Positions 10,021 to 35,132 of a DNA stretch of 42,302 bases are shown piece by piece. Within the stretch, counting starts at the first letter, position 1. Each line of letters opens with the position of its first letter. Below the pieces are notes generated by a model. That model worked only from the letters and a program-made list of their open reading frames with translations. It had not been told where the DNA came from and ran no database searches. The translations under genes and the position numbers were made by a program. The DNA lies in assembly GCA_937899275.1 (NCBI GenBank), contig CALBPE010000053.1, positions 1 to 42,302 on the forward strand, written 5' to 3'. This stretch comes from an uncultured Chlamydiae bacterium (GTDB taxonomy: Bacteria > Chlamydiota > Chlamydiia > Chlamydiales > SM23-39).

Positions 10021-10040
10021 TAAGGATTCTAGGATTCTAG
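10021..10040. repeat. Copy of 11-bp direct repeat TAAGGATTCTA, left flank of the interrupted gene
   Basis: TAAGGATTCTA at 10021-10031, followed directly by a second partial copy (GGATTCTAG to 10040). The same 11 bases occur at 13409-13419, on the other side of the interrupted long gene. Could be a target-site duplication or recombination scar. A 10-base match in the opposite orientation at 42277-42286 shows that the word is not unique in the window. Confidence 0.45.
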
Positions 10041-10062: not shown

Positions 10063-10500
10063 CTACCACTGGCGGGGAAAGCTTTCGCTTCTTGTTCTTG
10101 AAGAAGAGCGAGATCGGAATCTGCGATTTCTCTTTTCATCGTCTTTTGTATCACGCTCTAATTGCTTTCTTAGGTTCTCCTCACCGGCTAAGTACTTTTC
10201 TAGATCTTCGCGATAATACTTTTCGAAAGCGCTTACTTCTTTGCCAAAACGAATTGTCTGTAATTCCTTTATACCGAAACGAGGAAAGTACAGCGTTGTA
10301 GAAACGTTTTTATTTTGAGGCTTGAAGTGTTTACGAGTCTCTTTTGTTGAAAATACAAACGTAAATCCGGTATCAGGGATACTCTTTTCAGAGTTAACTG
10401 CTGTGGTAAAGTCTGTGATATTAGACGAACCTCCTTCAGGGTCGAGCTTATATCTGTCTGTAGAAGATAGCTGATTTATTTCTTCACTTAAGTTGTGGTC
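10063..10500 (-). pseudogene. C-terminal continuation of an interrupted long gene (145 codons after TGA-TAA)
   Basis: Directly after the tandem stops TGA (10504-10506) and TAA (10501-10503), the same frame stays open for 145 codons to a TAG at 10063-10065. It contains no ATG, GTG or TTG in frame, so it cannot be started as a normal gene. The translation looks like real protein: it begins DHNLSEEINQLSSTDRYKL, has a central mixed stretch, then an acidic/basic helical part (EKYYREDLEKYLAGEENLR), and ends in an Arg/Ser-rich tail (RNRRFRSRSSSRTRS). The simplest reading is that it is the C-terminus of the protein encoded upstream (10504-13401), cut off by nonsense changes or reached by readthrough. 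No homologue is recognised. Confidence 0.6.
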
Positions 10501-10503
10501 TTA

Positions 10504-12252
10504 TCAAACCTCTCCTTCACGCGATATGAAAACTCCTTCTTTTTGTATCTTTTTTGATAAGTTTTCTATTGGGTAAATATCACCCTTTGTATCTATGAAA
10601 AAGGGATTCATCCAGGTTTTAATCTGGTGAAATTTTAGAGTGGTAATATTCCTTTTTCGACCGCGGTTCTCTTTTTCATCAGGTAGGTTTGCCAATGCTA
10701 AGTTTTGTAAAAGATGAACTGCAAAGTCGACATTAAGGGTTTTGTTTTGTTCATCAAGAAAATGGATAGTTTGATCCTTATTTGGAACAATCCAATCGCC
10801 GTTGTAAAGTATAACACGTAATTTTTCAACCTGATTATCTGGTAAAGGAATTAAACATCCCGAATGAGGATCATAAAAATGGGAACGTTTTTTATAAGGA
10901 ATCTCGTCGCCGGGAGTAATAATATTCTGAACATTAATCGTACTTTTAGAATTGTAAACTCTCCCCACGAAGAATACTTGTACGCTTTTTTGTAAATCTG
11001 CACTTTTCCCTTCTGTTGATGAAATATCGCGTGCGGAGGTTGAAAGCCCTTGTAGAAAATTTGCGAAAGATATCGTCCGGTGTTTTGGAATTTTAGCTAT
11101 TTGTTTACCTGGTTGATAGTAACTAGGAGGTGTTTTTTGTCTATCTGGGCTATAAAAAATTCCTAAAGGAATTTTAGGCTTCTTCTTGTGCAAAGGAACA
11201 ATCAAATTATGTGTGGGATCTATGAACAGATTCTTTTCTCCTATCTGGCGCTCTTTATCTACCTCTTCTTGTTTTTCAGCATAGAAAATAGAGCCGTCTG
11301 CTTTTAAGAAGACAGAAGCAGATGTCATCTTATGGAGACTGTAAATTTTTGATGTATGGAAAGATCTGTTGCCTGCCGCTATTAGAAACAAACCGTTTTT
11401 TTCCTTTTTTAATGCTCGGAATCCGATGGAATTTTTATTTTCACTTGCTATAAAGCAGTTTCCATTGTAGTAGAAAAGGCTGTTATCCACAGCTTTTACA
11501 GGAAATAAAAGTCCGTTCTCTGCATCGTAAACACTTGAGGAGGTATAAGCTGATAAATTGTCTTTAACTACTATGCTTTTTCTGAGCGCTGTATACTCAA
11601 AAGAGGACGGCGTCATATGCACTTGTTCAAGTGTATCCTGAGCTTTTCCTTTATTTCTTGCTTTTTCTAATATGCTTTGCCAAAGATTGCCTTTCCTTCG
11701 TATTTTAAACCGGGCAGGTAATGTACATACATATGTTGTTGAAAAGAACACAGTTCCACCGCTTATTACATAAGGAGCGTCGTTTCCTGGTATAGTTGGT
11801 ATGGCTATTTCTCCATCATTTTTTTGATGTACAAAATAGGGAGCCTCGCTTGAGCTAAGAATCTTTGGTCCTGTAGAGCTGCGAAGATCTACGCTACTTT
11901 TTTGGGCCTTATAATCCTCTTGCGTTTGTTGTGTAAGGCAGTCGGAATATCTATACTTTGCGCTAGACTGTGGGTATATTAAGGGAGCTAATTTATCGAC
12001 TGTACATGAAGATGCAATGTGGAAGAATAGATTTTGTAGATTTTTTCTAGCCTTATTTTGACGCATATTTTCAGTTTGTCGCAGTGATTGGATGTTTTCT
12101 ACAATGCCTATGAATTGACGAAATGCATGTACGGTAGCTTCTAGATTTACTGTTAGCGTGGTATCTTTTTCTTTTTCCAACTCTGTTATTAATGATTCTT
12201 TGTAACTTTCTATCAGTTGTTTGCATTTCTGAAGGGGCGCTTGTAACGCCTG
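10504..12252 (-). pseudogene. Middle part of an interrupted long gene; degenerate repeat protein of unknown function
   Basis: Continues in the same frame after the TAG at 12253-12255; an independent start would have to be TTG at 12180 (558 residues), which has no convincing ribosome-binding site. The joined reading before that TTG (starting QALQAPLQKCKQLIESYKES) is coding-like and helical. From the TTG: a helical N-terminus (1-60), then a beta-rich region with about five or six degenerate copies of a motif of the form F/Y-D-x3-G-x-I/L-x-P followed by D/N and, about 12-15 residues later, a Tyr-Asn-Gly-like turn (near residues 116, 217, 290, 319, 435 and 528). It ends at TGA-TAA, beyond which the frame continues. 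No known family is recognised; no transmembrane segment is visible in this part. Confidence 0.6.
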
Positions 12253-13401
12253 CTACGCAATCGTTATTTCTTTGCAAATCTCTTGCAGTTGCTTTGGCGG
12301 TGGCTCATTTTGTGGAATCTCTATCCATCGCCTTTTAGGATCAATATGTTTTTTTAAAGCTTTGTATATCGTGTCGAGCTTTTGTCGGTAATAAGAACTG
12401 GTCGTCTGTTCTTTAGACTCTTGGGCGCAGTCTGTAATGCTTTTAGACAATGCTTGTATATATGTTTTTTGTTGATCTAAATATTTTCGTACTTCTTCCC
12501 ATGTATCTGATGCTGTGGAGTCTTCGGGTGTGTCAATAGCGGATTGTGTTACGGACAAAATTTGTGTATTTAACATGCTCCATGTAGATGGGTCTAGTTT
12601 GTCCAGCTGCTTTTTTAAACTATTTATGAATTCATACTCTAGATGCAGTATACTTTCGATTAGTACCGGATTGTTTAATAGGTACAATTCTCTATTTACC
12701 CTGCAAAAAAGTCTAGGAAAGTGGTGTTGTGTCTGCTGAAAGAAAGGGTGTTCGTACATCTTCATCCACTGCTGTTCAGCTGATTTCGATTCGTCAAGGG
12801 GGTATACGCATGGTTGAAATACTTGAGCAGGTGGGTTTGTACAGAGAGGTCCGAAAATTAGCTCTTTTGGTTTAGAAGAATGGTTAGCTTTTTTCGCGTT
12901 TATCTTCTTCCAATCGAGTTGAGCAGCTAAAGAGATAGTAGATGTGGCTGTGAAGCTTGTCTGAGCAGTGTTTTTTGTAGCAACGGAACCACTGTCTGCA
13001 TATCTAACTGAGGTAGGCGAGTCACGATGAGCTTCTAGAAACGGATAGCTATTTCTGAAATAGACCTTGAGAGCAAGCATGATAATAGGAATAAACAGAA
13101 GTAGAGGATAAACGATGCTTATGACTTTTGTGGTGAGCTTAACGAGGTACTCTAAGCAAGAAACGGGGCTTTTTCCCGGTGTTAATTCATTCAATTTTCT
13201 AGTTCGAAGGGGCTTATTAATGCAAAGTATGTCCTGTGAATACTGAAAGTAACGCTCTGCTATGTAACACAGTTTAAATAAGCACCATTCGAATATACTG
13301 CGAGGCTTGGGCGCTTTAGGGGCGTTGGGGTCGGGAAGAACTGGACTAAAAAAAGGTACAGTTGGAAGTTGGTTAAGCCCTGAAATATTCATAAAATCCA
13401 A
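12253..13401 (-). pseudogene. N-terminal part of an interrupted long gene; membrane-anchored protein of unknown function
   Basis: Begins with ATG at 13401 and reads 382 codons to an in-frame TAG (12253-12255). Pro-rich N-terminus (about 19-33), then a Cys-containing stretch, one strongly hydrophobic segment (about 93-115, ISIVYPLLLFIPIIMLAL) and a long helical, soluble region that is still in the middle of a helix when the stop occurs; the same frame goes on with coding-like sequence. A stable truncated product of 382 residues is possible. I do not recognise the family; a chlamydial inclusion-membrane or secreted protein is conceivable, but the single hydrophobic segment is not the bilobed type known for Inc proteins. 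Starts 37 bases after lipA, in the same direction. Confidence 0.65.
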
Positions 13402-13408
13402 TTTTAAT

Positions 13409-13419
13409 TAAGGATTCTA
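13409..13419. repeat. Copy of 11-bp direct repeat TAAGGATTCTA, right flank of the interrupted gene
   Basis: Exact second copy of the repeat at 10021-10031, same orientation, lying in the 37-base gap between lipA and the start of the interrupted long gene. Together the copies bracket that gene almost exactly. Confidence 0.45.
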
Positions 13420-26541: not shown

Positions 26542-27495
26542 TTATTTTTCATCGTTTGCAAGAAGCAGTTCAATTCCTTTTTGTGGGTTTGCGATTCTGC
26601 CTAAGCTATTGAGCCGTGGAGCAATTTTCAATGCGATATCGATGGGGGAAATTTCTCCTACATCTAAACCGCAAATTCTAAAGAGTTTTTTTAATCCAAT
26701 GCGGGCATTTTTTTTCAGTACCTCAAGGCCGTAGCGCACTAAGATCCGGTTTTCTCCTATCAACGCGCCCATATCCGCAATCGTTCCTAATGCGACAAGA
26801 TCAAGGTAATCTTTTAGATCCACTCGATTGGCAATCAATGCCCCTTTTTCTGTGAGTGCATTGAGTAAAGCGTGCGCTAATTTGAATGCAACACCAACGC
26901 CTGTTAACTCCCGATTGGGATAGGTGCTTTGGATTAATTTCGGGTTTAGGGTGGCTACCGAGTGGGGTAGTTTTTTCGTAGGCTCGTGGTGATCGGTGAT
27001 AATGATATCGATTTGCTTGCGGTCGATTGCAGATAGCTCTTTGCTAGAGCCGATACTACAGTCTACTGTAATCAAAAGAGAGCAGTTTTTTTCTTTAGCA
27101 TACTGGAACGCATTTTCTGAAAGGTTTTGACTGAGCTCTGCTGTATTGGGTATATAACAAAGTACGTTGACGCCAATTTTTTGTAAAAATTCGGTCAGAA
27201 GGGCGCCTCCACTCATGCCATCTACATCGTTATCTGCATAGACAAGTACCCGTTCTCGTTTTTTTAAAGCGGCAAGAACTCTTTTGACCGCTTTATCCAT
27301 ATCGGCAAAAAGGTGTGGGGAATGTAGCTGTGGTAATTTCCCGTAGAGAAAAGAATGAATCGCTTCTAAATCATCAACACCTCTAGATACAAAAATCTGC
27401 GCTGTTGCTGGATGGATGTGAAATTCTCGTATGATATTTTGTAAGAGAACCGGGTTGTTTTCAGGATAAATCCAAAGGTGGGAAGAAGGGCTCAT
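26542..27495 (-). pseudogene. recJ: recJ, single-stranded-DNA-specific exonuclease, N-terminal part (317 codons)
   Basis: RecJ degrades single-stranded DNA 5' to 3' in recombination and mismatch repair. ATG at 27495 with AGGT upstream. DHH-family phosphoesterase motifs: D88-N-D90-V-D92-G, D145 (TVDCS), D168-H169-H170 and GVGVAFKLAHAL. Metal-binding positions look intact, but the usual PNR-x-EGYG loop reads IPNTAELSQNLS. An in-frame TAA (26542-26544) stops it before the DHHA1 domain; the frame continues unbroken to 25780, total 572 codons, the normal RecJ length. Without the rest the protein should be inactive. It lies 134 bases downstream of secDF, in the same direction. Confidence 0.8.
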
Positions 27496-33857: not shown

Positions 33858-34745
33858 ATGATCATTACTATTGATGGACCTTCGGGTACAGGAAAATCGA
33901 CAACAGCTAAACGCTTAGCTTCTGCATTGCAGATTGCTTATCTAGATACAGGAGCGATTTACCGCTCTCTTGCTTGGTTTTTTTTAGAGGAAAAAATCGA
34001 TCCTGCAAATGAAGCTGAAGGTAAAAAAGCGCTGAAACGGTTTCATCTTGAAATCACGGAAGACGAGAATTACATCGTTTCTGGAAAAAATATAACGAAA
34101 GAGCTGCGCAAAGAAAAAATTTCTACGTTAAGCTCTACTGTCTCTGCTTTTCCCTACATTCGTAAACACCTTCGGAAAATTCAGCGTGGGTGCATGAGTA
34201 AGCGCTCTGGTGTTGTAGAAGGAAGAGATATAGGCAGCGCTGTTTTTCCTAAAGCAGATGTGAAAATTTTTCTCACAGCCAGCTTAGCAAGTAGAGCAAA
34301 AAGACGGCATTTACAGCTAAAAGAGCAGTTTCCAGATCAAGATTTTTCCCTGAAAGATATCGAAGAAAAACTCGATCAAAGAGATCAAGCAGATAGCACA
34401 AGAGCTTCTTGTCCGCTGAAAAAAACAAGCGATATGTATGTGATTGATACCACAAATCTTTCGTTGGAAGAGGTGTTGATTGCTATTTTGCATAGGATTC
34501 CGAGAAAGAAAATGCGCTTTTTCTACAGGATGATTTTTCAAATTGCCTGGGGTATATTTCGCTGTTTTTACCGCTTTCGGGTGTATGGTAAACAGCATCT
34601 TTTTGCAGGGCCTGCTCTTGTTATTGCCAACCATACCTCATATTTCGATCCCCATATGACTGTTCTTGCGATGAAAGAAGAGCTCCATATTCTTGCTAGA
34701 AATACCCTATTTCGGCAAAAGCTCTTAGCTTCTTTGATTTTATAA
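33858..34745 (+). CDS. cmk: Cytidylate kinase fused in frame to the N-terminal part of PlsC
   Basis: 295 residues. CMP kinase part (about 1-215): P-loop GPSGTGKST, DTGAIYR, EGRDIGSAVFPKADVKIFLTA... region with R123/D124, and the KLDQRDQADSTR lid. It phosphorylates CMP and dCMP with ATP. No stop codon separates it from PlsC: the frame runs into RKKMRFFYRM and on to the acyltransferase motif NHTSYFD (H259, D264), ending at TAA 34743-34745. ATG at 33858 has GGGGTGAT upstream. Either cmk has lost its stop, giving a fusion, or plsC is also started internally at ATG 34512. As translated the product would be Cmk plus a truncated acyltransferase tail. Confidence 0.88.
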   Translation: MIITIDGPSGTGKSTTAKRLASALQIAYLDTGAIYRSLAWFFLEEKIDPANEAEGKKALKRFHLEITEDENYIVSGKNITKELRKEKISTLSSTVSAFPYIRKHLRKIQRGCMSKRSGVVEGRDIGSAVFPKADVKIFLTASLASRAKRRHLQLKEQFPDQDFSLKDIEEKLDQRDQADSTRASCPLKKTSDMYVIDTTNLSLEEVLIAILHRIPRKKMRFFYRMIFQIAWGIFRCFYRFRVYGKQHLFAGPALVIANHTSYFDPHMTVLAMKEELHILARNTLFRQKLLASLIL

Positions 34746-35132
34746 CTAAAAGCCCATCCCCAACATCAAGGAAAAAAAGATGTCACTGCGATGAAAACGA
34801 CCTTTTCTTTGCTAAAACAAGGGGAAAAAGTGCTCCTTTTCCCTGAAGGGGGTAGGTACTCAGGAAAAACCCTGCATCCGTTAGAACCAGGCATTGGATT
34901 TTTAGCTTATAAAAGTCTTGCGCCAATCATCCCCATCTATATTTCTGGGGCTTGTGATGTATGGGGGAAAACGCGGAAATTTCCTAAGCTATTTGGTAAA
35001 GTTACCTGCCATATAGGCCCTCCTATTTTGCCTGCAACGTACAGCCCTATGGATAAAAAAGCTTTTATGAAAAAAGTGGTGCAAGATGCAGAAGCATCTC
35101 TCACCAATTTACAGAATAAAGCGCGTTTATAA
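34512..35132 (+). pseudogene. plsC: plsC, 1-acyl-glycerol-3-phosphate acyltransferase interrupted by an in-frame TAA
   Basis: Acylates lysophosphatidate to phosphatidate, the substrate of CdsA. From the internal ATG at 34512 the frame gives a hydrophobic N-terminus, motif NHTSYFD (HX4D), LARNTLF, then TAA at 34743-34745. The same frame continues with LKAHPQHQGKKDVTAMKTTF (matching the L-N-A-x-P region expected next), FPEGGRYSGKTLHP (acyltransferase motif III) and PIIPIYISGA, ending at 35132. With the stop ignored the length (206 residues) is normal. A separate downstream start would be ATG 34791, which would make a product without the catalytic His. So the gene is intact apart from one stop codon. 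Confidence 0.8.

Follow-up and report, generated by a model that had tools for sequence, protein, structure and literature searches.

A 3.4-kb orphan locus between lipA and glgC of an uncultured chlamydia-like bacterium, with interior stops probably due to assembly substitutions

The window analysed here, a stretch of 42,302 nucleotides from the metagenome assembly of an uncultured chlamydia-like bacterium, carries an orphan gene of about 1109 codons that is interrupted in frame by a TAG and by a tandem TGA-TAA. These interior stops are probably part of a genome-wide background of random substitutions in the assembly. Relative to the related genomes the gene is an insertion and, taken jointly with an origin of its stops in assembly substitutions, the locus is probably best described as a lineage-specific orphan gene gained as a 3.4-kb insertion. 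Being most likely assembly errors, the interruptions are of low biological interest and serve as a useful warning on this genome. The coordinates of the features described below are given in Table 1.

Table 1. Positions of the orphan gene, its parts and borders, and interior stops elsewhere in the same assembly (window positions unless a contig is named).
Feature	Position	Strand	Evidence
Orphan frame, 1113 codons with the stops counted; as a single protein, about 1109 residues	10063..13401	-	translation, coding potential
N-terminal piece, 382 aa	12256..13401	-	translation
Interior stop 1, TAG, both flanks coding	12253..12255	-	translation, codon model
Middle piece, 582 aa (558 aa counted from TTG 12180)	10507..12252	-	translation
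Tandem interior stops TGA-TAA (TGA 10506-10504, TAA 10503-10501)	10501..10506	-	translation, codon model, ORF-end survey
Startless tail, 145 codons, same frame, coding-like; C-terminus basic, serine/arginine-rich	10066..10500	-	
Direct repeat, copy 1, exact, 11 bp, TAAGGATTCTA, glgC-side border of insertion	10021..10031		
Direct repeat, copy 2, exact, 11 bp, TAAGGATTCTA, lipA-side border	13409..13419		
In-frame TAA inside recJ (27495-25780), frame kept; in-window control	26542..26544	-	
In-frame TAA inside fused cmk-plsC (33858-35132), frame kept; in-window control	34743..34745	+	
rpoB, in-frame TAG, about 112 codons ahead of gene end	L166:7446	-	
obgE, single in-frame stop	L053:13772		
alaS, single in-frame stop	L155:2133		
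pheT, single in-frame stop	L170:5984		
ftsK, single in-frame stop	L168:9150		
glgP, single in-frame stop	L141:6705		
gatB, single in-frame stop	L062:5224		
pth, single in-frame stop	L159:16333		

The orphan frame codes across both stops

Translation of the minus strand recovered the frame and its interior stops as described in the earlier note; the frame closes at TAG 10065-10063, giving a total of four stops in 1113 codons. The start, previously placed at ATG 13401, was wrong by nine bases: the codon at 13401-13399 is TTG, and the first in-frame ATG lies at 13392-13390. The next start past the TAG is indeed TTG 12180, 24 codons on, and the 145 codons beyond the tandem stops do contain zero ATG, GTG or TTG.

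All six frames were scored with a codon model derived from this genome's long ORFs. Frame 0 ranked first on either side of each stop, and 24-codon windows along the gene displayed no lasting shift of frame. We also surveyed the ends of ORFs of at least 250 codons (548 from this assembly, 153 from a relative); of these 701 ends, only that at 10506 precedes a run of at least 145 open same-frame codons whose first 100 lack a start. Because frame 0 is best on all flanks and the startless tail is without parallel among ORF ends, the orphan frame was a single coding unit that, until recently at least, extended over the two stops. The marks of a genuine pseudogene (frameshift, deletion or lost coding signal) were not encountered in this frame: the absence of a frameshift over 3.3 kb, claimed before, was borne out, and the coding signal is undamaged.

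An insertion between lipA and glgC

Relatives share the order lpdA-lipA-glgC-metallophosphoesterase, and the gap between lipA and glgC is below 300 bp in 10/10 of the relatives' loci where both genes are visible (L007, L008, L009, L012, L014, L016, L019, L021, L023 and L026). Here an insertion of 3.4 kb separates the two, with the orphan gene as its only gene. An exact 11-bp direct repeat flanks the insertion, for which the chance in zones of such size is around 0.002; it hints at an insertion event, without identifying any mobile element.

Pfam and NCBIfam searches of the three orphan pieces returned weak matches only, well under cut-off, and no family fits. Protein homologues were sought in 64 genomes from this family or order, where none was convincing, and in GTDB contigs, IMG/VR, phages and plasmids, where there were none; the sets searched contained no second genome of the genus. 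A match to the orphan protein at E 7.7e-4 was dismissed, as it covers a 41-residue stretch within a 55-codon frame containing stops. Single-sequence AlphaFold2 modelling of the middle piece gave a mean pLDDT of 34, too low to use, and the internal repeats spotted by eye in this piece were not significant against shuffles (18/40). The N-terminal piece displays one strong hydrophobic segment, at approximately residues 92-114, which is a possible single membrane span. From this segment and the restriction to one lineage, it may be guessed that the protein is membrane-anchored or takes part in host interaction.

Interior stops elsewhere in the assembly

We sampled 1.14 Mb of this assembly (33 contigs, 77 kb, were present as N, leaving 1.07 Mb) together with 0.31 Mb of a relative, G015. 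Comparison with G015 proteins revealed interior stops in rpoB, recJ, cmk-plsC, gatB, pth and a gspE-like gene, and 0 real frameshifts among the 141 genes compared. NCBIfam matches on the flanking pieces identify interrupted obgE, glgP, ftsK, alaS and pheT; for the first three of these, the profile alignment skips precisely one position at the stop. The TAG of rpoB aligns with a sense codon in the relative and the rpoB matches of all relatives are stop-free. In the case of alaS and obgE, a stop within a cut-off-passing match was found in this genome alone among 28 family genomes. Interior stops are thus present in essential genes and absent from relatives.

Several further observations concern these genes. 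The cmk and plsC genes are fused into one frame on the plus strand of the window. The gspE-like secretion ATPase (L163:1460-2947, plus strand) contains two in-frame stops, TAA 2699 and TGA 2750, 17 codons apart, the stops elsewhere being single. For alaS, there are three partial matches in one assembly (contigs C59, C63 and C100), which fits its contamination of 5.95%, and two of them may be another organism's.

In a reference-free coding-potential scan the 0.31 Mb of G015 gave 0 strict interior stops, with 12 predicted from the rate in this assembly (P ~4e-6); the 1.07 Mb of this assembly gave 43, about one per 25 kb. Their spread over contigs fits random placement (p 0.54), and their mix, 25 TAA : 13 TAG : 5 TGA, is substitution-like when set against the 0.49 : 0.275 : 0.235 expected from random substitutions in this codon usage. 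The 43 stops are followed by C in 14 cases, by T in 11 and by A and G in 9 each, with C only mildly in excess, which makes the TAG-CAG context, to which the earlier note had drawn attention as partly matching a leaky viral motif, uninformative. The two stop events in the 3.3 kb of the orphan gene slightly exceed what the genome rate predicts (p ~0.016). Natural genes of this assembly end in 297 TAA, 147 TGA and 127 TAG, with tandem stops at 17 of these 571 ends.

An underpowered missense test on rpoB and rpoC together counted 3 departures over 443 invariant columns, which is not unusual beside the other sequences. No complete rRNA was present in the fetched contigs. Among the overlaps between contig ends two are exact, at 55 bp, which suggests short-read k-mer assembly; the others resemble diverged repeats. 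Contigs L051, L053, L061, L062, L078, L139, L140, L161 and L175 share dispersed repeats, roughly 100-700 bp long and with 82-98% identity, which are possibly small mobile elements.

Origin of the stops

Considering that the same kind of stop cuts many indispensable genes of this assembly, sequence error is the most likely explanation for the stops. Random base substitutions in the assembly would create stops in essential genes and in the orphan gene alike, and the density of interior stops would correspond to a substitution error of about 0.1% of bases, a figure estimated from that density and not measured. Likewise for the orphan gene specifically, the source is most likely consensus error and not decay. 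Pseudogenes called on internal stops are often assembly errors, dependent on coverage, assembler and platform (Cooley and Wright, 2024, PMC11017572). Of the two readings previously offered, that of one large protein carrying nonsense changes agrees with the coding potential over both junctions, while its production by stop-codon readthrough finds no support in random-looking stops of all three kinds across the assembly.

The orphan gene might instead be a true recent pseudogene that acquired the TAG and then the TGA-TAA and is decaying, atop an assembly that is error-prone elsewhere. We regard this as unlikely, and it retains some weight mainly on account of the tandem TGA-TAA, adjacent stops being improbable from two independent errors; the apparent dispensability of the insertion and a stop rate slightly above that of the genome also speak in its favor. 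Against it, the gene has kept its frame and its coding signal, and the same pattern is seen in the other two interrupted genes of the window and in essential genes elsewhere, which are not dispensable. Since essential genes with real, uncompensated stops would be nonfunctional, pseudogenisation fails to explain the genome-wide pattern.

The frame could also be divided into two adjacent genes, of 382 codons to TAG 12253 and of 558 codons from TTG 12180, the second with a natural TGA-TAA end followed by a chance open tail. TTG 12180 is a possible start and tandem stops do end some natural genes here, but the 24 codons between the TAG and this TTG stay coding, no ribosome-binding site is evident by eye ahead of it, and a startless tail of this length has no parallel in the ORF-end survey, making such a division improbable.

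That the organism translates through in-frame stops, by readthrough or by reassignment, would account for rpoB, alaS and obgE, otherwise nonfunctional if their stops are real, but is very improbable given that TAA, TAG and TGA all occur as interior stops, the aligned positions in the relative vary (Leu, Tyr, Cys, Lys, Arg) where reassignment would give one particular amino acid to one stop codon, prfA and prfB (RF1/RF2) are intact and over curated cut-offs, with no lost or altered release factor in the fetched sequence and no suppressor tRNA or suppressor anticodon in 1.07 Mb of readable sequence (about three quarters of the genome), strict interior stops are rare, and TAA, TGA and TAG also terminate hundreds of normal genes; a general low-level readthrough of all three stops in essential genes, with the orphan gene one of many so expressed, is equally far-fetched.

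If the stops were real they would be extraordinary, with rpoB, alaS, obgE, pheT and ftsK all dependent on translation through stops. Taking them as assembly substitutions, the assembly is unfit for claims of pseudogenes, recoding or readthrough without reads, and the one real feature left is a modest one, namely an orphan gene that forms a 3.4-kb insertion between lipA and glgC.

Comparison with known systems

The artefactual pseudogenes described by Cooley and Wright (2024, PMC11017572) resemble the present case in that, across the genome, genes expected to be intact show a surplus of internal stops, essential ones included; that study used public bacterial assemblies with reads, whereas here the stops were judged from the assembled sequence alone. 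Reassignment systems, for which stop codons have been screened (PMC8629427) and of which the trypanosomatid Blastocrithidia offers an all-three-stop code (PMC12153298), likewise have in-frame stops in critical genes; the present stops differ in their rarity, their three kinds and the varied residues opposite them in the relative, in a genome with intact release factors and no suppressor tRNA found. With lineage-specific bacterial orphan genes the locus shares the lack of a detectable homologue and an insertion at a site unoccupied in relatives, whereas it differs in its unusual length of about 1109 codons and in its flanking 11-bp direct repeat.
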